Positions 16,666 to 45,074 are shown, numbered from the stretch's first letter. The stretch is DNA of 64,000 bases from an uncultured Aquimarina sp. (GCF_947500065.1 NZ_CANMQT010000001.1:868001-932000); one strand, 5' to 3'. The notes: a model not told the origin generated them from the sequence alone. A program made the numbers and translations.

Positions 16666-16701
16666 AAGGCGGAAACCGAAAAGCCTTAGAACAGAGTAAG
16701 T
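16666..16701 (+). promoter_or_regulatory. conserved leader element copy F (stem + 12-nt loop + AGAGTARGT box)
   Basis: AAGGC-GGAAACCGAAAA-GCCTT-AGAAC-AGAGTAAGT upstream of the lipoprotein ORF at 16727; same architecture as elements at the RiPP locus. Confidence 0.7.
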
Positions 16702-16726
16702 ATATAATAACTCATAAAACCATACA

Positions 16727-17191
16727 ATGATGAAAAATTTAAGAAACCTATTATTTAGGGCCATGACTATTTGCTTGATTATTACAATATCATCTTGCGA
16801 AAAAAAAGATATTGAACAAGGAAATCTCTCTTTGTTAGAGGATAACAAACTAAATAAAATTGAAAAATACGATGAGTATACTATTGAAAAACCAGAAAAG
16901 GATGGTGTCCATTTGGTTGGAAAAAACGAACGAACAGGTAGTGTCTTATCTATACGTATTCGAAGAGGGAAAGTTATTGGCTTTCAGATTCTAAAAAAGG
17001 ATCAAAACCTCACGATATTTGATAAGTTAGTAATACCTACTTCACAAAATTTACCGCCTTGGAAACCTATTTCTTGCCCTGATGGTTGGGATGGAAAACT
17101 GATTTGTTATACAAATAAAGATGGCATCCCTGTTTCTTATTTTCGATGTACTCCAACATCATTTACCATTGGTCTAGAGCCTAAGTGGTAA
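16727..17191 (+). CDS. putative lipoprotein, hypothetical
   Basis: 154 aa; signal peptide ending ISSCEKKD lipobox. Confidence 0.65.
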   Translation: MMKNLRNLLFRAMTICLIITISSCEKKDIEQGNLSLLEDNKLNKIEKYDEYTIEKPEKDGVHLVGKNERTGSVLSIRIRRGKVIGFQILKKDQNLTIFDKLVIPTSQNLPPWKPISCPDGWDGKLICYTNKDGIPVSYFRCTPTSFTIGLEPKW

Positions 17192-34586: not shown

Positions 34587-35480
34587 TCAGACGATCTCTT
34601 TGTTTTTTTTGAATTTTCTAATTCCCCATGCTACTTTATAAGTTCTATAGAGTAAATCATAGATCACCATTTCGTGTAAGCGATTTTTGGATCTAAATAA
34701 CCTATTCATTAGCATATGAATATAACTACCCATCATATCATCTAATTCTGACTTACTGACAACAGATAGAATATCTCTAGTCAAAGCTTCACTATTCTTA
34801 CTTTTCTCTTCTAAAACATCAATAATAGGAGCATAATCAGCATCCATTTCTCTTTTAAAATTCAAAAAATTCTTAATCTTATCATGTTCATTTCTGAATT
34901 TCTTATCCATCTGTTTCTTAAGGTTCTTATTCATTCCAAACTCTGCTCCAAAACCTATCTTTAATTTTTCCATCAAAGCTAGTTTCTCATCTTCATTATA
35001 ACCAAAATCCTTAAGTTTTTGATCTATTGCTCTTACTCCAAATAACCATCTCAATTCTTCTCCTTCATCTCCATCAATCATATCCAAGAAATCTACTATC
35101 ATCTTACTATCCAGAAAAAACAGTTCTTCTGATTGATCCATCGTTTTTACTCCATAGCGTTCTATCTCCCGTTGATAGGTATCTAGTTGTATTTTCCATA
35201 TTAGGTCTTCATCAGAAAATTCTTTAAGCGATGTATATAATGAATTAATAATTCCAGCAACATTTTCAGGGTTGTTGTAATGGAATCTTACCCTAATATG
35301 ATGTTTTGGATCATTATATCTGATAAAAAACCATTTATCAATAGTATTGTTTTCTAATAAACTCATTGCAGCAGGTCTAATAATATCCGTCAGAACTAAA
35401 TCTGAGGTCTTAGGACCAGTGTAAATTTTATAATACAACCATTCACTACCCACAATAAAGGATCTTTGTACATCAACCAT
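34587..35480 (-). CDS. thiopeptide-type biosynthesis protein / LanB elimination domain (SpaB_C-like)
   Basis: 297 aa; SEWLYYKIYTGPKTSDLVL, KWFFIRYNDPKHHIRVRFH; 1-nt overlap (TAATG) with the LanB N-terminal gene. Confidence 0.88.
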   Translation of the reverse strand: MVDVQRSFIVGSEWLYYKIYTGPKTSDLVLTDIIRPAAMSLLENNTIDKWFFIRYNDPKHHIRVRFHYNNPENVAGIINSLYTSLKEFSDEDLIWKIQLDTYQREIERYGVKTMDQSEELFFLDSKMIVDFLDMIDGDEGEELRWLFGVRAIDQKLKDFGYNEDEKLALMEKLKIGFGAEFGMNKNLKKQMDKKFRNEHDKIKNFLNFKREMDADYAPIIDVLEEKSKNSEALTRDILSVVSKSELDDMMGSYIHMLMNRLFRSKNRLHEMVIYDLLYRTYKVAWGIRKFKKNKEIV

Positions 35481-37714
35481 TAATTCTGCAAATTTTTTAA
35501 TTTCTTTTCATTATAAAATGACATTACAATTTGATTTGTAAATGTTTTTGTCCCTTCCTTTACAACACTTCCTTTAGCATGTAAAAATTCTTTAAGTCTA
35601 AATTTACCTCTCTTTTTTACCGTATTCAATAGCATTTTCATGGATGTGGTATTATTAGAATTAGTCAACAATTCATTATCTCCATCCACTAGAAGTACAA
35701 ACTGAGGTATATTTTTATTTTTCACAAACTTATCTAGTTCTTTACAAAATTCCTTTTCATCGTTCAAGTTCTTTAATAAAGGTTCAATTTCTGATAACGA
35801 AACATTCCAAGTAGCATTAGAAAATATAATATCATTATACTCTACTCTTGGCAAAAAATCATATTCATCTGCAAACGGTCCCCAATCAAAAGAAATACCT
35901 CCTCTTTGATTCTGAGTTTGCATATTCGCTAAAAACTGATAAATAGGCAAAGCATTACTAGAAAAATTATGTGCATTAGTTAGGTGCGGAACCACTTCTT
36001 TATTGAATTTTTTAGATCTCAACGTCACTTTCCCTCTTGCACTAGCAGAAATCATTAAATCATCCAACAAAAGTTGGTTTTCATCATTAAGAATAGACTT
36101 TGCCAGATACGGAATTTCATATTTTCTAAAACTAGGTCTCATCAAAATATTCCCTACTCGAGACTCAGGCAAATGCACAATTTCTGCAAGAATTTTATCA
36201 GGATTTAACTTTGTTTCTACATCAATTATTTCCTTCGTATATGTATCTAAATCTTCATCTCCATGACAAAAGCGTCCTAATAAATTTGCAGCACTTGAAC
36301 CGCCACAACTAGACATGATTATTTTTTCAGTATTATCTATATTTACTAATTCAATCATAGAAGAAATAGTATCCGGTATATCCTCCCAGTTTTCTTCAAA
36401 ATCATTAAAGTCTTTGTCATTCAATACCAAAATGGTTTGCTGCTGTTTAATACATTCTATTAATTTTTCATGAAGAATTGAATGTACTGGAGACCACTTA
36501 ACCTCTTTTACGACATTTTTTTCTTGCTTATATGGTAATACAAGGTCATCAATTATCTGACTTACATCTCCTGAGTCTTTATCCTGCAAAAACCCAATTC
36601 CTAACTCTACATCAAGTGCTTTTGACAAAGGAACTTCTCTGCTTTCATATCGTTCATAAAAAGCTGATTTAAATCTAGAAATATATGTTTCTTTTGACGG
36701 TAATGTCAATTTATTGAGTAATGACAAGCCTTTCTTTATCTTCTTTACAGTATCATAGCTTAGCGTATTAGTTTCTAATGATAGACTCATATCTGTTTGA
36801 AACATATATTTTAGCTCAAAACCAGTTCCTAACTTCTTTAAGGACTCGCTAAGCTTTATGTATTCATCAGCAGAGTTTCCAATATTCTTATCAATATTAT
36901 GCAGTGTAAGTTGCACACTTTCTAGCTCAGAAATGATATGTTCAGTTCCCGATATTTTTTTTAAAACAGGTACTATTTGATCTAAAAACTCCGGACCTGA
37001 AACGGATGGTTCCAATTCACTAATTAATAATTGACTTTCTACTAATTGATCTATAAACCCTGAAGCTTCTTCATTACTAATTTCATCATCTACTAATGCC
37101 TCTGCTAAATCACAAAGAAGTGATCCCTTTCTTGCTTCAGAAAGCACTTTTTCCAAATATTCCGAATCTTCTACAGCCACAATATGATGTACTCTTCTGC
37201 TTTCTACATAAGTGTATTCTACATATCTAATTTGTTTTCCGGCTTTATATATACTGGTATTCGGGTAAAATAAAAGCTGATCTTTAATAGTTTTGTCCTT
37301 AACGATATCCTGAGACATTGCTACCAAATAATTCATATCCAATCGGGTATGGCGATTGTTTTTTGATTTATCAGAAAGCTCCATAGTCGTAGTCTCTGAA
37401 AACTCTCCTACTGCTGTTCCTGCAAAAAGCCCAAATGGTGTACATCGGGAGGACATTCGACTAATGTATTTTAATACTGAATACATCATCCGTTCTGATG
37501 TTTCCTTATCTTTTATAGCTCCTTTTAGCCATTTTTCAAATTCCTGATATAAAGAAGGTGAAGCTAAAAAAATAGCTTCTTTGATAATTTTGTCGGAGCA
37601 AATTTGTTTTAGATCATCTTCTCCTAGTATTTTATTCTGAGTTAGTTCTTTGTAAAATGAAAAGGAAAACAGTGGAGTACGTAAAACGTATTTTGGAAAA
37701 TTTTTATAGCTCAT
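35480..37714 (-). CDS. lantibiotic dehydratase family protein (LanB glutamylation domain)
   Basis: 744 aa; YVLRTPLFSF, MSSRCTPFGLFAGTAVGEF, HTRLDMNYL typical of the LanB N-terminal domain. Confidence 0.9.
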   Translation of the reverse strand: MSYKNFPKYVLRTPLFSFSFYKELTQNKILGEDDLKQICSDKIIKEAIFLASPSLYQEFEKWLKGAIKDKETSERMMYSVLKYISRMSSRCTPFGLFAGTAVGEFSETTTMELSDKSKNNRHTRLDMNYLVAMSQDIVKDKTIKDQLLFYPNTSIYKAGKQIRYVEYTYVESRRVHHIVAVEDSEYLEKVLSEARKGSLLCDLAEALVDDEISNEEASGFIDQLVESQLLISELEPSVSGPEFLDQIVPVLKKISGTEHIISELESVQLTLHNIDKNIGNSADEYIKLSESLKKLGTGFELKYMFQTDMSLSLETNTLSYDTVKKIKKGLSLLNKLTLPSKETYISRFKSAFYERYESREVPLSKALDVELGIGFLQDKDSGDVSQIIDDLVLPYKQEKNVVKEVKWSPVHSILHEKLIECIKQQQTILVLNDKDFNDFEENWEDIPDTISSMIELVNIDNTEKIIMSSCGGSSAANLLGRFCHGDEDLDTYTKEIIDVETKLNPDKILAEIVHLPESRVGNILMRPSFRKYEIPYLAKSILNDENQLLLDDLMISASARGKVTLRSKKFNKEVVPHLTNAHNFSSNALPIYQFLANMQTQNQRGGISFDWGPFADEYDFLPRVEYNDIIFSNATWNVSLSEIEPLLKNLNDEKEFCKELDKFVKNKNIPQFVLLVDGDNELLTNSNNTTSMKMLLNTVKKRGKFRLKEFLHAKGSVVKEGTKTFTNQIVMSFYNEKKLKNLQN

Positions 37715-37734: not shown

Positions 37735-38949
37735 TTAGCTAATCATTAAACATTCGTTCCATTGATTTTCTGACGGTGTTAAATATGAGATCATTGACAA
37801 CCCTATTCCGGCAATTCCTTCTAACAAATTAGTTTCATTTTGCCATGCTTCTTTATCACCTCTCCATTGTTTATATCCTGCATGCCCATCTGTATACGTG
37901 TCCATTTTTAATGCTTCTCCCATCCAAAAGTCTGCTGTTTCTTTAAATATTAATTCTTTAGTTTCTATATGCATAAAATTGAACATAGAGACGATTCCAA
38001 ACACTCCATGACACAATCCAGTATCATTGATTCGTGCTTCTTCTGCATCTCTTCTTTTGGCAGCATGTTTTAACACGTCTATTGCCAATTCCTGATATTC
38101 TTTATTTTCTAGTACTTTACCAACTTTCCAAAGAGAGATACCTATCCCTAAGTCTCCATAACACCAGGCCAATCTACTATTCGTATATTTTTCCATCTCT
38201 GGATACACCCAACTTGGAAAAAGAGAACTCTGGTTTTCGTTAGGGTATTTACAATTGATTATAAAATCTGCTGCACCAACTAGCAAATCTTTTGTTACCT
38301 CCTGAAAATCTTCATATGAGTACAATCTACTTAAAAAATTAATGACACTTGCCATTCCATGTGACAAACTTAAATTAGCGCCTCTAAGGTTCTCTTTTTT
38401 TCGTAACTCATACATCCAAAACACCCCTCTATCATCTTTTTGAGCACTATTTTTAAGAGCATCTATGAGACGTAAAAGATATGTTGTATACCTTTCTTTT
38501 AGTGGCTGTGATTTTGTGTTTTGATACCTTTTTAAGAAATAATACCCATATCCTATTGCTCCGTGTAAAAAATCGAAATTTTCATTTTTGATATCTGCAT
38601 TCATCGATTCAAAAAGATAGCTGTCTAACTCTGATAAAAGATCATCACTGTTAATATCTATAAATTCTTCTTCATTTAGCAATTCTAACACCCATCCAGC
38701 TCCAGCAATACCCGCACAAAAAGTAGGAAAAGAATACCCATCATTCATGCGCTGTATGGTTTCTGATATAACCTCTACGCCTACATCTGCAATCTGTTCA
38801 TCCTCTACAAAACGCGCATAATAAAACTGGAATACTGAGATTCCGGACATACCTGCTAAAACACCTATGTGTTCTTTGTTGTTATAATTTTCTTTTAAAA
38901 CATGATGTATTTCCTTTAATTTCTCTTTTAAAACTGCAGTAGTATTCAT
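37735..38949 (-). CDS. LanC-like lanthionine synthetase
   Basis: 404 aa; Zn-ligand-like motifs LAWCYGDLGIG and TGLCHGVFGI; SLSHGMAS. Confidence 0.9.
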   Translation of the reverse strand: MNTTAVLKEKLKEIHHVLKENYNNKEHIGVLAGMSGISVFQFYYARFVEDEQIADVGVEVISETIQRMNDGYSFPTFCAGIAGAGWVLELLNEEEFIDINSDDLLSELDSYLFESMNADIKNENFDFLHGAIGYGYYFLKRYQNTKSQPLKERYTTYLLRLIDALKNSAQKDDRGVFWMYELRKKENLRGANLSLSHGMASVINFLSRLYSYEDFQEVTKDLLVGAADFIINCKYPNENQSSLFPSWVYPEMEKYTNSRLAWCYGDLGIGISLWKVGKVLENKEYQELAIDVLKHAAKRRDAEEARINDTGLCHGVFGIVSMFNFMHIETKELIFKETADFWMGEALKMDTYTDGHAGYKQWRGDKEAWQNETNLLEGIAGIGLSMISYLTPSENQWNECLMIS

Positions 38950-39097: not shown

Positions 39098-39289
39098 TTA
39101 TTTAGCAACACATCCTATTCCTCCTTCCCAAATAGGAACAGAATTACATAGCGCATTTGTAGCACCCGATCCAACGCATCCTAATGATAGTGCTCCAGTG
39201 CCTGTAAGATTACCTCCATTAACTGATTTTTTCTCTAATCTACTTATCGTTTGTTTTTTAAGCCCTAAACTCTTTAATGATTTTTTCAT
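39098..39289 (-). CDS. putative class I lanthipeptide-type precursor peptide (leader family 1)
   Basis: MKKSLKSLGLKKQTISRLEKKSVNGG / NLTGTGALSLGCVGSGATNALCNSVPIWEGGIGCVAK; GG leader, Ser/Thr and three Cys in core; next to lanC/lanB. Confidence 0.85.
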   Translation of the reverse strand: MKKSLKSLGLKKQTISRLEKKSVNGGNLTGTGALSLGCVGSGATNALCNSVPIWEGGIGCVAK

Positions 39290-39309
39290 GATATAAAATT
39301 TAAAAATAC

Positions 39310-39343
39310 ACCTACTCTATTCTAAGGTTTTCGGCTTCCCCTT
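39310..39343 (-). promoter_or_regulatory. conserved leader element copy A
   Basis: Minus strand: AAGG-GGAAGCCGAAAA-CCTT-AGAAT-AGAGTAGGT upstream of the 39098-39289 precursor. Confidence 0.75.
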
Positions 39344-39398
39344 ATCAAAAATTGATCTGACTAAAGTAGGCTACAACTTAGAGGCTTAAAAATAAAAA

Positions 39399-39424
39399 CT
39401 CCGCAGTTTGTTCAAACTGCGGAG
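39399..39424 (-). terminator. terminator downstream of the 39480 precursor
   Basis: CTCCGCAGTTTG-TT-CAAACTGCGGAG perfect stem with T-rich tail on minus strand. Confidence 0.8.
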
Positions 39425-39479
39425 CTAATTTTGGGTTACTTAAATTTGTGTTTATTATTAGGAAATTACTGCCTAATAT

Positions 39480-39638
39480 TTAATAAGCTGTACTGTCATT
39501 ACACTTAACATAAGAATCTTCAATATCTATGGTAGTAGGATGACTACTACCACCATGAACTTGAACCATCTCTGACATTGTAATTCTAGCTATAGTAAGC
39601 TTTTTCAGATTTATTTCGTTTGTTTTCTTGTTTTTCAT
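39480..39638 (-). CDS. putative RiPP precursor peptide (leader family 2)
   Basis: MKNKKTNEINLKKLTIARITMSEMVQVHGG / SSHPTTIDIEDSYVKCNDSTAY; track start at 39671 also possible. Confidence 0.75.
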   Translation of the reverse strand: MKNKKTNEINLKKLTIARITMSEMVQVHGGSSHPTTIDIEDSYVKCNDSTAY

Positions 39639-39789
39639 GAGTTTAAAATTTGTGTTTTTGAGTATATACAAAATGTGCTATTAAGCATCATAATATTTAG
39701 ATGTCGAAATATACTTTATATGTGTTTTCAATCATAATTAGTATACCTCAAATTGTCCAATTTGCGCTTCTTCTACTGCACAAAAAAAT

Positions 39790-41550
39790 TCACGTATACT
39801 CGGTCGCTAATTTTTCTAAATTCTTGATATAATAGGATGGATTGATCCCAGTTTTAGCCCTAAAATGTTTTGTAAATGAATTATCACTCTTATAGCCTAT
39901 TTCTGAAGCTATTGATTTAATCGAAAAAGATCTAAACTTTTTATCTTTCTTTAATCGCCTAAGCACATACTCAATTCTTAGGTCATTGATATACTCATTA
40001 AAGTTTTTCATTTTATACGTACTAATAATCTTAGATAAATAGGTTGCATTACTTTTTACCTTTTTTGCCATTCCTCTCAGATTACAATCTGATTTCAGGA
40101 AATATTCCTGCTCCTCTAATTTTTCTAATTTATGCAGTATATCATTAACTTTTTGATCATCGATATTTAATTCCTTTGTAAATATCTTGCCACTTTTTAC
40201 TGTTTCTTTAGCTTCTAGCTGGTCTATTTTTTCAACTAATTGTACAAACGTATTTTTACTGTTTTGTTGCTTTTTAAAATAAATACCTACAATACTTACA
40301 AGAAGTAAACAAATAGTAATTAAAATACTATTCGTTACATAATTAGTTTTGTTTTCCTCTATCATTTCACTTTGCAAAACATCTATTTGCGACTCTAGTT
40401 GCAGAGTTTCTTTCTTGTAAATTTTATTTACTGTTTTGTCTTTATGTATTTGATAATATTTGTTGAGCCTTACATATTCGTCATTCCAGAATAACGCTTG
40501 TTTGTAATCTTTTTTTGCTCTATAACAATTGGCTAACAACAGATGCAATTGAATTACGGGTTCTTTGTTTTTATCACTTTCTTTTAAGGTATCAATACTT
40601 TTACGAGCATAAGTGATTGCTTGGTTATATTTTTGCTGTTGATAATAACAACTAGCCATAAAATAGTTGATATTAACTGTGGGGAAAAACTTGTTTTCAA
40701 TATCTTCTGCTGCTAAAATCTTCTCAGATTTGATTAGATAATCGAGTGCTTTATTATAGTTTTTTTGATGATAGAAAACCATTCCCTTTTTTATATATAA
40801 ATCAAGAAGTCCCGCTTTAAAATCAATAGATTTACTAATCTCAATTCCCTCATCAGCATACTGCAACACTTTGTCATACATCTCTTTAGCTAAATACACA
40901 TCATTAATCGTTGTATATATACGCACATGATTTTCACTATTTACAAATGAAGTAAGATAGATATTCTGTATCATATGCTCAGATATCTCAAGCGCTTTGT
41001 CTAACTGATTCATTCGTGTAAGCACTATAATAAGACCGGACTTGGTTATCATTTCTCTATCAATATCACCAGTTGTAATCGCAATATCTATGGCTGCATA
41101 ATATGCATCCAATGCTTGTTGATCATGACCTTCTCTCAAATACACATGTCCCTTTAAACTATATGCCTTGCCTAGCTGTTTTAATTCTTTTTTTGCTTTA
41201 GCTATTAATATGGCTTGGTCTAAAAATTTCAAACTTTTTAAATATGCTTCTTTGTCGTAGAAAAAGCGACCCATTTCGTAATATTTTTCGGCAATATGTA
41301 TCTCTAGATTTTGATTATCCAAAAGTGCTTTTTCGTATACACCAATTTCTCCTGGATATGTTTTTTTTATTAATTCTATTAATTCTTCGGTGGTTTTGTT
41401 TTGCATGCTATCGGGAATTACCGTTGGTTGTTGTTGCCCGTATATTTTTGTTAGTAAAAAAACAGATGCGAATACATAAAGAAGTAAATGTCTAGCGATA
41501 CATCTTTTAACAAAAGAAATCATTTGGATCGATATTGTGTGATGATCCAA
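39790..41550 (-). CDS. membrane-anchored TPR / AraC-type HTH regulator (paralog 1)
   Basis: 586 aa; signal peptide, TPR-like repeats, TM (NSILITICLLLVSIVGIYF), C-terminal AraC HTH (FSIKSIASEIGYKSDNSFTKHFRAKTGINPSYYIKN). Confidence 0.9.
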   Translation of the reverse strand: MDHHTISIQMISFVKRCIARHLLLYVFASVFLLTKIYGQQQPTVIPDSMQNKTTEELIELIKKTYPGEIGVYEKALLDNQNLEIHIAEKYYEMGRFFYDKEAYLKSLKFLDQAILIAKAKKELKQLGKAYSLKGHVYLREGHDQQALDAYYAAIDIAITTGDIDREMITKSGLIIVLTRMNQLDKALEISEHMIQNIYLTSFVNSENHVRIYTTINDVYLAKEMYDKVLQYADEGIEISKSIDFKAGLLDLYIKKGMVFYHQKNYNKALDYLIKSEKILAAEDIENKFFPTVNINYFMASCYYQQQKYNQAITYARKSIDTLKESDKNKEPVIQLHLLLANCYRAKKDYKQALFWNDEYVRLNKYYQIHKDKTVNKIYKKETLQLESQIDVLQSEMIEENKTNYVTNSILITICLLLVSIVGIYFKKQQNSKNTFVQLVEKIDQLEAKETVKSGKIFTKELNIDDQKVNDILHKLEKLEEQEYFLKSDCNLRGMAKKVKSNATYLSKIISTYKMKNFNEYINDLRIEYVLRRLKKDKKFRSFSIKSIASEIGYKSDNSFTKHFRAKTGINPSYYIKNLEKLATEYT

Positions 41551-41640
41551 ATGTAACGATTACTTTCTTAAAACGATTTCAATAGATTGTATACGAATCT
41601 AAAACCCTTTTGTTAATTGCATTAAAATTATATCAAATAA

Positions 41641-41680
41641 AAACTCCCAAAAAACATGAGCTGTTCTCTGGGAGTTTCCT
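41641..41680. terminator. hairpin, possible bidirectional terminator
   Basis: AAACTCCCA ... TGGGAGTTT stem in intergenic DNA. Confidence 0.5.
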
Positions 41681-41739
41681 GTATTCCTATGAAATATACT
41701 GTTATTTAATGTTTTACCATCTAAAGGAATTCCTTCTCC

Positions 41740-41868
41740 TTGGGCGACAGCGTAACAATGATGAGCGAGACGAAGCGTTAAAGTTAGCCCGCCTGACCTA
41801 ACGGGCAGGGATGAGGGGTTTTGACAATAAAACCCCTCACCTTAATCCTCTCCCAGAGGGAGAGGAAA
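41740..41868. repeat. intergenic multi-hairpin element
   Basis: Three consecutive inverted repeats: GCCCG(41787-41791)/CGGGC(41802-41806); GAGGGGTTTT-GACAAT-AAAACCCCTC (41813-41838); CCTCTCCC-AGA-GGGAGAGG (41847-41865); base composition differs from flanks. Confidence 0.6.
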
Positions 41869-41937
41869 CATAAAATTCGTAATTACACCTAATTAGATTT
41901 TACTTATACTTTTTCTTATATCGAACTACCTTATAGA

Positions 41938-42090
41938 TTACTTCGTAACCTCATCTGTATTTTTAGTGACACAATCAATAACAGTATGACAAAACATAGA
42001 GTTAGCTACTGAACCACCATGGACCTTAGTTAGGTTTAGATTACTAATAATCTGCTTTTTAAGTTCTAAACTTTTTAATGATTTTTTCAT
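41938..42090 (-). CDS. putative lanthipeptide-type precursor peptide (leader family 1; not in ORF track)
   Basis: Hand translation: MKKSLKSLELKKQIISNLNLTKVHGG / SVANSMFCHTVIDCVTKNTDEVTK*, 50 aa; leader nearly identical to the 39098 ORF. Confidence 0.82.
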   Translation of the reverse strand: MKKSLKSLELKKQIISNLNLTKVHGGSVANSMFCHTVIDCVTKNTDEVTK

Positions 42091-42113
42091 GATATTAATA
42101 TTATTTTAAAAAC

Positions 42114-42148
42114 ACCTACTCTTATTTACTAGCTTTTCGGTTTCCGCT
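42114..42148 (-). promoter_or_regulatory. conserved leader element copy B
   Basis: Minus strand: AGC-GGAAACCGAAAA-GCT-AGTAAATA-AGAGTAGGT upstream of the 41938-42090 precursor. Confidence 0.75.
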
Positions 42149-42304
42149 CAATATAATTTTATACTCAGGTCTAAACTATGGTGAGTTAGAGGGTATTAAA
42201 AATAAAGTATGGTCAGATTTATAAAATTGACGATGTTGACTCGCTGAGAATTTGTTTGTATTCTAATACATTTTAAGTATGGTATAATAAATAAAAACAA
42301 AAAA

Positions 42305-42329
42305 CCCTGAAGCTTTATGAGTTTCAGGG
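42305..42329 (-). terminator. terminator downstream of the 42340 precursor
   Basis: CCCTGAA...TTCAGGG hairpin with T-rich 3' side on minus strand. Confidence 0.65.
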
Positions 42330-42339
42330 AAAATGAAAA

Positions 42340-42495
42340 TTAATGTAATGCTTGATAACAATATCCACCTAAGCAATTACCATTACAAAGAGCTAAACAA
42401 TAGCCTCCTAGATAATCTATACCAGCCTTGATCGATTGCTGTTCTGTTCTCTTTAGTTCAGACACTCCTTCTAAATTTAAAATATTCTTAAGCAT
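42340..42495 (-). CDS. putative bacteriocin-like precursor peptide (leader family 3; not in ORF track)
   Basis: Hand translation: MLKNILNLEGVSELKRTEQQSIKAGIDYLGGYCLALCNGNCLGGYCYQALH*, 51 aa, four Cys. Confidence 0.8.
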   Translation of the reverse strand: MLKNILNLEGVSELKRTEQQSIKAGIDYLGGYCLALCNGNCLGGYCYQALH

Positions 42496-42512
42496 AATTA
42501 TACGTTTTAATT

Positions 42513-42546
42513 ACCTACTCTTTACAAAGGTTTTCGGTGTACCCTT
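42513..42546 (-). promoter_or_regulatory. conserved leader element copy C
   Basis: Minus strand: AAGG-GTACACCGAAAA-CCTT-TGTAA-AGAGTAGGT upstream of the 42340-42495 precursor. Confidence 0.75.
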
Positions 42547-42618
42547 AATAAAATTTATATACTAACTAATTAGGTTTTGTTATTTACATAGTACCCCCTA
42601 AAAGAAAGTAAAACAAAA

Positions 42619-42665
42619 GAGGCTGTCTAAAAAGCGATGTTTTTGGTTACTTTTTAAACAACCTC
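42619..42665 (-). terminator. terminator downstream of the 42676 precursor
   Basis: GAGGCTGTCTAAAAAG / CTTTTTAAACAACCTC long stem with G-U-compatible mismatches. Confidence 0.65.
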
Positions 42666-42675
42666 ATTTTTTGAA

Positions 42676-42849
42676 TTAATGTAGCATTTGATAACACGTT
42701 CCATTTGGGGAACAAGTCCCAGAGCAACTCGCAACACATGCATGAAATGCAGCACCTGGGCAGCTTGAACAGTGTCCTGCTATAACAGATTGTTGTTCTT
42801 TTTTATTTAGTTCAGATACTCCTTCTAAATTTAAAATGTTCTTAAGCAT
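42676..42849 (-). CDS. putative Cys-rich bacteriocin-like precursor peptide (leader family 3; not in ORF track)
   Basis: Hand translation: MLKNILNLEGVSELNKKEQQSVIAGHCSSCPGAAFHACVASCSGTCSPNGTCYQMLH*, 57 aa, six Cys; leader matches the 42340 ORF. Confidence 0.8.
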   Translation of the reverse strand: MLKNILNLEGVSELNKKEQQSVIAGHCSSCPGAAFHACVASCSGTCSPNGTCYQMLH

Positions 42850-42866
42850 AATTGTATGTTTTAATT

Positions 42867-42900
42867 ACCTACTCTGTCTTAAGGTTTTCGGTTTCCCCTT
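42867..42900 (-). promoter_or_regulatory. conserved leader element copy D
   Basis: Minus strand: AAGG-GGAAACCGAAAA-CCTT-AAGAC-AGAGTAGGT upstream of the 42676-42849 precursor. Confidence 0.75.
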
Positions 42901-42937
42901 ATCAAAATCAATTGTCGACACTAGCTTGATTTTGATA
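42900..42937. promoter_or_regulatory. perfect 12-bp inverted repeat, possible operator
   Basis: TATCAAAATCAA-(14 nt TTGTCGACACTAGC)-TTGATTTTGATA abutting leader element copy D. Confidence 0.55.
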
Positions 42938-43003
42938 CTAAACTAGATTGAAAAAAAGAGGATAAAAAACAAAACAACCCTGTTTTGGATGAAACAGGGT
43001 CAT

Positions 43004-43036
43004 AAAAAAACCCTACAAAATATGCAGGGTTTTTTT
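43004..43036. terminator. terminator-like hairpin downstream of the 43060 precursor
   Basis: AAAAAAACCCT...AGGGTTTTTTT; a second hairpin AACCCTGTTT...AAACAGGGT lies at ~42976-43000. Confidence 0.75.
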
Positions 43037-43059
43037 AAATAATTTTAATCTGTATTTAA

Positions 43060-43206
43060 TCATGGATTTGCAAGACAAGGTTCATCATTTGTATGTCTCG
43101 GACCTGTATGCATGCTACTACCTCCTTTAATTTTGCGCATAGCATCCGTATTGATCCTAGCAATCGTTAGCCTTTTTAGACTGATTTTGTTTTGTTGTTG
43201 TTTCAT
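43060..43206 (-). CDS. putative RiPP precursor peptide (leader family 2; not in ORF track)
   Basis: Hand translation: MKQQQNKISLKRLTIARINTDAMRKIKGG / SSMHTGPRHTNDEPCLANP*, 48 aa; leader matches the 39480 ORF. Confidence 0.78.
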   Translation of the reverse strand: MKQQQNKISLKRLTIARINTDAMRKIKGGSSMHTGPRHTNDEPCLANP

Positions 43207-43230
43207 AAACAAGATGATTTAGTTAGTGTT

Positions 43231-43263
43231 TCTTACTCTTTTTTGGATTTTCAGAATCCCCCA
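43231..43263 (-). promoter_or_regulatory. conserved leader element copy E (divergent)
   Basis: Minus strand: TGGG-GGATTCTGAAAA-TCCA-AAAA-AGAGTAAGA upstream of the 43060-43206 precursor; 9/12 loop positions match consensus. Confidence 0.6.
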
Positions 43264-43349
43264 TATTAATATTCTTATTGAAATATATTTTTTCTGGAGC
43301 ACTAATCACAATACATCTACCCTTTATTAGACAAAAACGGGTTGTTTTT

Positions 43350-45074
43350 TTATGCTCTTTTAGGAATAACATCTTCTCGTTGCAACTTTTCTATATTCTT
43401 AATATAATATGATGGGTTTAACCCTGTTTTTGCTTTAAAACGTTTTGCAAAAGCATCATCACTTTTATACCCTACTTCTGCAGCAATTGACTTCACAGAA
43501 AAAGCTCTGAATTTTTTATCATTTTTTAATCGTTGCAATGCGTACTCAATTCTTAAATCCGTGATATACTCATTAAAATTCTTTCCTTTATGTGCATGAA
43601 TAATCTTAGTAAGATAGGTGGTATTGGTCTTTACTTTTTTCGCCATCAACCCCAAGCCACATTCAGATTTTAAAAAATATTCCTGATCTTCCAGCTTATC
43701 CAAACCTTTTAATACTGCTGTAACCTTATCATCATCAATTACAATTGTTGCACTACTATTTTTCGTAGCTTTTTTACTTTTTTCTACCTCTAAATGATTG
43801 ATTTTTTCAAGTAATTCCGAGAACATTATTTTGTTGGATTGCTGCTTTTTATAATATCTAAATCCTATTAGTAGTAGTACCAAAGAAATCGCAATAGAAC
43901 TGATCAATAGATACGTTGCGATGCTTTCTTTACTTTTTAATTCTCTTATTTCTTTCTCATGCTTTTCAATTTCTTTCTCATAAATTATATCTACTGTTTT
44001 GTCTTTATCCTCCTGATAGCTACTATTTAAGTTTATATAACTACGCTCCCAATAATGTCCTTGTTCAAAATCTTTCTTTTTAAAATAACAATTAGCTAAT
44101 AACAGATGTGATTGGATTACCGGCCGTATACTTACATCTTCTTCCTCTATAAAATCCATAGTCTTGCACAGATAATAAATTGCCATATCATAGTTTTGTT
44201 GTTCATAATAACAACCCGCCATATAGTAATTGACTTTTACTGTTGGAAAAAACTCATTACCAATATCATAATGCTCCAAAATATTTTTGGCTTTTTTTAA
44301 ATTATCAAAAGCCTGATCAAACTCTTTTTTATAGTAATAGACAATCCCTTTTTTAATATATAAATCTACAAGGCCTTCTTTTAAATCAATAGATTTGCTC
44401 ATGTCAATACCTTTATCCGCATAGTATAATACGGAATCGTATTGTCCTTTATCTAAGTATACTTCATTGATATTAGTAAATATGGCTACATGACTCCTGC
44501 CATTTTTAAAAGAAGTTTTATCAATAGCTTGTAACATTTCTTTAGAAATTTCTAAAGCTTTATCCAATTTATTCATTTTCTGCAATACGAGTATTCGACC
44601 AGAATTTGCAATAATTATGTTTTCCAGGTTTTCTTGCTGTTGCGCAATTTGTAGCGCATTATAATAGTAATCATATGATTTCTGATGTTTTCCCTGTCGT
44701 AAAAAACTTGACCCTATTATTATATGTGCTCGAAATATTAGTTTATCATCCGATAGTTCGTCTTCAATATCAAAAAGTTTATTAGCATATTTGATACTTC
44801 TTTTAAAATCTTCTTTTCTGAAAAAAAATTGTCCTAATTGGATATATATTTTTCCAATAACCGTGTCTTTTTTATGAAAACCTTCCAACATTTCTTCATA
44901 AACTTCTATTTCTGTAACATCAGAAGACTTAATCAAGTCTACCAGCTCGTTTGGCGTTTTAGTTTTTAGACTATCAGGTATACTAAAGTTGGTATCCTGT
45001 GCATTCGTAGCAACAGGTATTGCTGTAAATAGTACTAAGAAAAGGAAATATATCTGTGTTTTAAAAAAAGCCAT
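43350..45074 (-). CDS. membrane-anchored TPR / AraC-type HTH regulator (paralog 2)
   Basis: 574 aa; same architecture as the 39790-41550 ORF; FSVKSIAAEVGYKSDDAFAKRFKAKTGLNPSYYIKN. Confidence 0.9.
   Translation of the reverse strand: MAFFKTQIYFLFLVLFTAIPVATNAQDTNFSIPDSLKTKTPNELVDLIKSSDVTEIEVYEEMLEGFHKKDTVIGKIYIQLGQFFFRKEDFKRSIKYANKLFDIEDELSDDKLIFRAHIIIGSSFLRQGKHQKSYDYYYNALQIAQQQENLENIIIANSGRILVLQKMNKLDKALEISKEMLQAIDKTSFKNGRSHVAIFTNINEVYLDKGQYDSVLYYADKGIDMSKSIDLKEGLVDLYIKKGIVYYYKKEFDQAFDNLKKAKNILEHYDIGNEFFPTVKVNYYMAGCYYEQQNYDMAIYYLCKTMDFIEEEDVSIRPVIQSHLLLANCYFKKKDFEQGHYWERSYINLNSSYQEDKDKTVDIIYEKEIEKHEKEIRELKSKESIATYLLISSIAISLVLLLIGFRYYKKQQSNKIMFSELLEKINHLEVEKSKKATKNSSATIVIDDDKVTAVLKGLDKLEDQEYFLKSECGLGLMAKKVKTNTTYLTKIIHAHKGKNFNEYITDLRIEYALQRLKNDKKFRAFSVKSIAAEVGYKSDDAFAKRFKAKTGLNPSYYIKNIEKLQREDVIPKRA

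Follow-up and report, generated by a model that had tools for sequence, protein, structure and literature searches.

The repeated sequence in front of a row of small-peptide genes in this Aquimarina contig raises the question of what it is, a new cis-regulatory RNA as the initial annotation proposed, or something else, and of what it does there. In the window (the whole 64-kb stretch of DNA analysed), six copies of one element of about 34 bases were found at the positions claimed earlier, five of them within 39309-43264 on the minus strand and the sixth, copy F, at 16666-16702 on the plus strand (Table 1). The pattern GAAAA-n-AGAGTAR has exactly six matches in the 64 kb, namely these six copies, compared to 0.75 expected, and none of 100 shuffles reached six; the stricter pattern CCGAAAA...AGAGTA has five matches in the window against 0.02 expected. 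All six copies are located shortly 5' of an ATG, at a measured 20-28 nt, which agrees with the roughly 20-30 nt originally stated.

Table 1. DUF805b RNA copies, the genes behind them, and the associated lanthipeptide genes in the 64-kb window.
Feature	Position	Strand	Profile match	Structure or product	AGAGTA end to ATG (nt)
Copy A, DUF805b RNA	39309..39344	(-)	RF02914 45.9 bits (gathering 35.6)	Stem 1 AAGG/CCTT, 39343-39340 with 39327-39324; L1 GGAA; stem 2 GCC (39335-39333) with GGT (39312-39310); boxes GAAAA 39332-39328 and AGAGTA 39318-39313; ATG at 39289	23
Copy B, DUF805b RNA	42113..42150	(-)	RF02914 32.0 bits, E 3.7e-5, slightly under gathering	Stem 1 AGC/GCT (3 bp); stem 2 ACC (42141-42139) with GGT (42116-42114)	26
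Copy C, DUF805b RNA	42512..42547	(-)	RF02914 36.6 bits	Stem 1 AAGG/CCTT; L1 GTAC; stem 2 ACC (42538-42536) with GGT (42515-42513)	20
Copy D, DUF805b RNA	42866..42901	(-)	RF02914 43.2 bits	Stem 1 AAGG/CCTT; L1 GGAA; stem 2 ACC with GGT	20
Copy E, DUF805b RNA	43230..43264	(-)	RF02914 34.2 bits, E 6.5e-6, slightly under gathering	Stem 1 TGGG/TCCA; stem 2 TCT (43255-43253) with AGA (43233-43231), compensated form	27
Copy F, DUF805b RNA	16666..16702	(+)	RF02914 45.0 bits	Stem 1 AAGGC/GCCTT; stem 2 ACC with AGT (2/3 pairs, C-A mismatch)	28
Gene under copy A	39098..39289	(-)		ORF; 63-aa GG-leader precursor-like peptide beside lanthipeptide synthesis genes
Gene under copy B	41938..42090	(-)	Weak bacteriocin-like match under cut-off	ORF; 50-aa GG-leader peptide
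Gene under copy C	42340..42495	(-)		ORF; 51-aa peptide, KAG leader end, four Cys
Gene under copy D	42676..42849	(-)		ORF; 57-aa Cys-rich peptide, paralogue of the copy C gene
Gene under copy E	43060..43206	(-)	NF038153 lant_leader_L1a 24.6 bits (cut-off 22)	48-aa class I lanthipeptide precursor
Gene under copy F	16727..17191	(+)		ORF; 154-aa predicted lipoprotein, lipobox-like ISSC
LanB C-terminal part (Lant_dehydr_C / thiopep_ocin)	34587..35480	(-)	PF14028 4.7e-73
LanB N-terminal part (Lant_dehydr_N)	35480..37714	(-)	PF04738 3.3e-143
LanC-like cyclase	37735..38949	(-)	PF05147 3.2e-46
Lanthipeptide precursor without element	39480..39638	(-)	lant_leader/GG_sam_targ, slightly under cut-off
TPR protein with AraC-type HTH	39790..41550	(-)
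TPR protein with AraC-type HTH	43350..45074	(-)

The five genes behind copies A-E are RiPP-precursor-like, as originally described: their products are 48-63 aa long, the leader carries a GG or AG motif, and the genes adjoin LanC and LanB genes. Only the copy E peptide passes the NCBIfam lant_leader cut-off. The gene setting in the window is the same as in Bacteroidota class I lanthipeptide clusters (lant_leader_L1a precursors, split LanB, LanC). One precursor of the cluster lacks the element, yet its paralogue behind copy E has one. On either side of the peptide genes lies a gene for a TPR protein that carries an AraC-type helix-turn-helix at its C-terminus; the two proteins are paralogues and likely regulators of the cluster. 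The copy F gene had no family match in the profile searches.

All six copies align with RF02914 (DUF805b RNA of Rfam, typed Cis-reg, clan CL00115) over the whole model, positions 1-35. The gathering score of 35.6 bits is passed by four of the six (A, F, D and C), and E and B are slightly below it. A 4-bp hairpin with the 12-nt loop GGAAnCCGAAAA and the 3' AGAGUAGG box are common to RF02914 and all six aligned copies. The repeated leader is a genuine RNA, structured and located in cis, of a family that is already in Rfam, where it is catalogued without a function. The claim of a new class falls because all six copies match RF02914, an outcome that the annotation itself had named as decisive against it. 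RF02913, considered as a sister DUF805 model, proved to be pemK; the DUF805 model was not seen in a scan of 17 loci, and no account of the DUF805 RNA was found in the accessible papers. What is added here are new instances of a described, functionally orphan family, stronger support for its structure and a sharper picture of its targets.

The whole genome (6.57 Mb) carries 23 DUF805b copies, and the element is present in 51 of 55 congener genomes, in 119 of 396 sampled Bacteroidota genomes and in none of the 14 control genomes. The same element-peptide pair occurs on a congener contig (G008:C3; loci L034 and L169). The pattern also matched records bearing the labels Gastranaerophilales, Ruminiclostridium, Phycisphaerales and Domibacillus (L106, L120, L128, L143), which is likely due to chance or to mis-binned contigs; in L106, two downstream genes have the element. 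A phage origin was rejected, only 10 viral stretches having matched. Two contigs of the viral collection with a DUF805b copy (L249 and L254) each also contain a permuted tmRNA.

The structure line printed for RF02914 is the hairpin alone; a second stem, between the loop and the 3' tail, was added in the present analysis. Altogether, 292 distinct copies were collected, but the main covariation test was limited to 96 distinct copies found by the Rfam profile (alignment A3), in order to avoid circularity, given that the printed structure of the profile lacks the second stem. In the structure tested on A3, stem 1 joins columns 2-5 to 18-21, and stem 2 joins columns 10-12 to 36-38. Standard pairs occupy 96.5% of the cells, and two-sided changes are found in all seven pairs (7/7). 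The covariation score of both stems is 0.647, compared to 0.173 +/- 0.014 in shuffles and at most 0.134 with slid partners; for stem 2 alone, it is 0.513 compared to 0.178, with slid partners reaching at most 0.093. The first pair of stem 2 appears as GC in 37 copies, AU in 23, UA in 16, and CG and GU in 6 each. When all column pairs of the profile-found set are ranked by APC-corrected mutual information, pairs of stems 1 and 2 make up six of the best seven, and an independent set, collected with a DNA pattern that left the first pair of stem 2 free, agrees with the profile-found set. The loops GGAA (GUAA in some copies), GAAAA and AGAGUA show hardly any variation or none.

Because both the hairpin and the loop:tail pairing covary, the folding of the element as an H-type pseudoknot is well supported. 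Stem 1 (3-6 bp) closes the loop GGAA-[NCC]-GAAAA, and NCC pairs with the GGN located directly 3' of AGAGUA, forming the 3-bp stem 2. The proposal of an RNA structure rather than a plain protein-binding site is thus borne out by compensatory changes in the 4-bp hairpin and in the loop:tail stem, and the covariation in homologs, the absence of which would have counted against it, is strong across the 96 distinct copies. The compensatory changes in the stems as first drawn also hold, with two corrections: the stem of copy B has only 3 bp, and that of copy E includes a G-U pair. The pseudoknot itself stands, but its supposed failure in copy F does not, two of the three pairs being kept, so that it is weakened rather than broken; about a tenth of the copies, F included, are short of one stem 2 pair.

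In this genome, the genes behind the 23 copies were sorted by reading into 13 short peptides with GG-type leaders, five lipoproteins or secreted proteins and five others, the non-peptide targets including lipoproteins and T9SS proteins. Across genomes, a crude sort of 257 distinct downstream proteins, by a script combined with profile hits and with many peptides lacking a family match, yielded 76 GG-leader-like and 33 other short proteins, 92 that carry a signal or lipoprotein sequence and 56 others. The leader families among the profile hits are class I lanthipeptide, TIGR04149, NHLP, CCPGW and Chryseobacterium bacteriocin-like; the other hits include the SdpC toxin family, T9SS cargo, outer membrane barrels, subtilases, a caspase, a tail-collar protein, a mannan-binding lectin and DUF805 itself. 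Peptides, lipoproteins and other proteins that are exported or of conflict type make up most of the targets, and the family listings of 201 downstream proteins show no pathway, transporter or biosynthesis gene in common.

The link to RiPPs is accordingly partial: 13 of the 23 copies precede double-glycine-type peptides, but the other copies are elsewhere, and most lanthipeptide precursors lack the element. Of the class I lanthipeptide precursors inspected across the genus, about 38 in all, about four have it, and the precursor at 39480-39638 has none; the element therefore marks a subset of peptide genes. A general lanthipeptide leader is ruled out by the same count, and the element does not belong to the cluster type.

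The distance to the start codon is tightly constrained. Where a start codon is close by (256 copies), AGAGTA is separated from it by a median of 25 nt (IQR 23-27; 89% within 19-32), which places the 3' end of the pseudoknot about 20-24 nt from the start codon (median about 22). A Shine-Dalgarno (SD)-like stretch is present in just 4 of 244 spacers, and the stretch between the element and the start codon is too short for a terminator. Ribosomes of Bacteroidia do not use the SD sequence; what they need is upstream adenines and little structure (PMC9976891). The tight spacing, the lack of an SD sequence and the lack of room for a terminator therefore favour an effect on translation initiation, where the element would act by adjoining, but not covering, the initiation region. 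Instead of controlling translation, the element may also affect the stability of the mRNA or act in a transcription-coupled way.

From the observed structure, position, distribution and kinds of targets, we infer that the element regulates, and the step and partner proposed here are to be taken in the same sense. Probably, the DUF805b pseudoknot, located in the 5' UTR, binds a putative trans partner through its fixed loops and thereby gates translation initiation, in one direction or the other. The conserved loops, exposed on variable stems, would constitute the binding site of the partner, for which an RNA-binding protein, a signalling molecule and the 30S subunit itself are candidates, and formation of stem 2 would decide the access of 30S to the open A-rich initiation region immediately 3'. 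Given that the targets share no metabolic pathway and are largely peptide, exported or conflict-type genes, the partner probably reports the general state of the cell, not an end product; and because the targets are scattered and pathway-free, an RNA-binding protein or a general signal is more likely than an end-product metabolite.

As to the nature of the partner, a putative dedicated RNA-binding protein is a tentative candidate, the element then being the pseudoknot target of a CsrA-like post-transcriptional regulon. Many scattered copies in front of unrelated genes, 23 in this genome, are what such a regulon predicts, and the single-stranded letters are invariant.

A riboswitch for a metabolite or signalling nucleotide, in which a ligand would lock stem 2 of a preQ1-I-like aptamer and change translation, appears somewhat unlikely. 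DUF805b resembles the preQ1 class I riboswitch as a minimal H-type pseudoknot in a leader, where the loop of a short hairpin pairs with the 3' tail, and preQ1-I riboswitches act on translation in several bacteria (PMC11625349); the invariant loops carried on variable stems also fit an aptamer. The likeness is limited to the layout, however: the conserved letters and the targets differ, and preQ1-I often occludes an SD sequence, which DUF805b leaders lack. Membership in preQ1-I fails, because no preQ1 family of Rfam gave a covariance-model match in the window at E up to 1 and no queuosine synthesis or transport genes are among the families listed for the 201 downstream proteins. The lack of a pathway, transporter or biosynthesis gene common to the targets argues against a riboswitch of this kind. 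It is unlikely that DUF805b is a ligand-sensing pseudoknot of preQ1-I size, and with it a riboswitch of a new class, by which genes for peptides, bacteriocin-like products and exported proteins are controlled in their SD-independent translation across Bacteroidota.

The tight start-codon spacing and the association with short or exported proteins are also consistent with a constitutive translation enhancer or an mRNA-stabilising 5' structure that touches 30S without a sensor role, but the loops are conserved beyond the need of a passive structure and, within one precursor family, the element is limited to part of the members, which makes this reading unlikely.

An TTGCGCAA-type palindrome is located 4-8 nt upstream of stem 1 in a number of copies (L009, L028, L032, L036, L043, L050, L051, L140, L194, L203, L210 and others), where it is about 44 times denser than across the loci at large, and other copies have palindromes of different sequence centred at about the same upstream place. 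These palindromes may be an operator or an extra hairpin. Dyads with arms of at least 6 number 34 upstream of stem 1, compared to about 11 in shuffles, but are confined to a minority of copies, and a general 5' hairpin was rejected on these grounds. Despite the TTGCGCAA palindrome next to some copies, it is very improbable that the element itself is DNA-level, an operator or promoter part, a reading contradicted by the crossing compensatory pairs in the two stems and by the even spread of TAnnTTTG, with no -7 promoter motif at a fixed place upstream of the element.

With its well-supported pseudoknot, its closely constrained spacing from the start codon and targets rich in RiPP or bacteriocin-like and exported products, DUF805b becomes a testable orphan regulator of SD-independent translation, and would offer a handle on the timing of peptide production by marine Bacteroidota.
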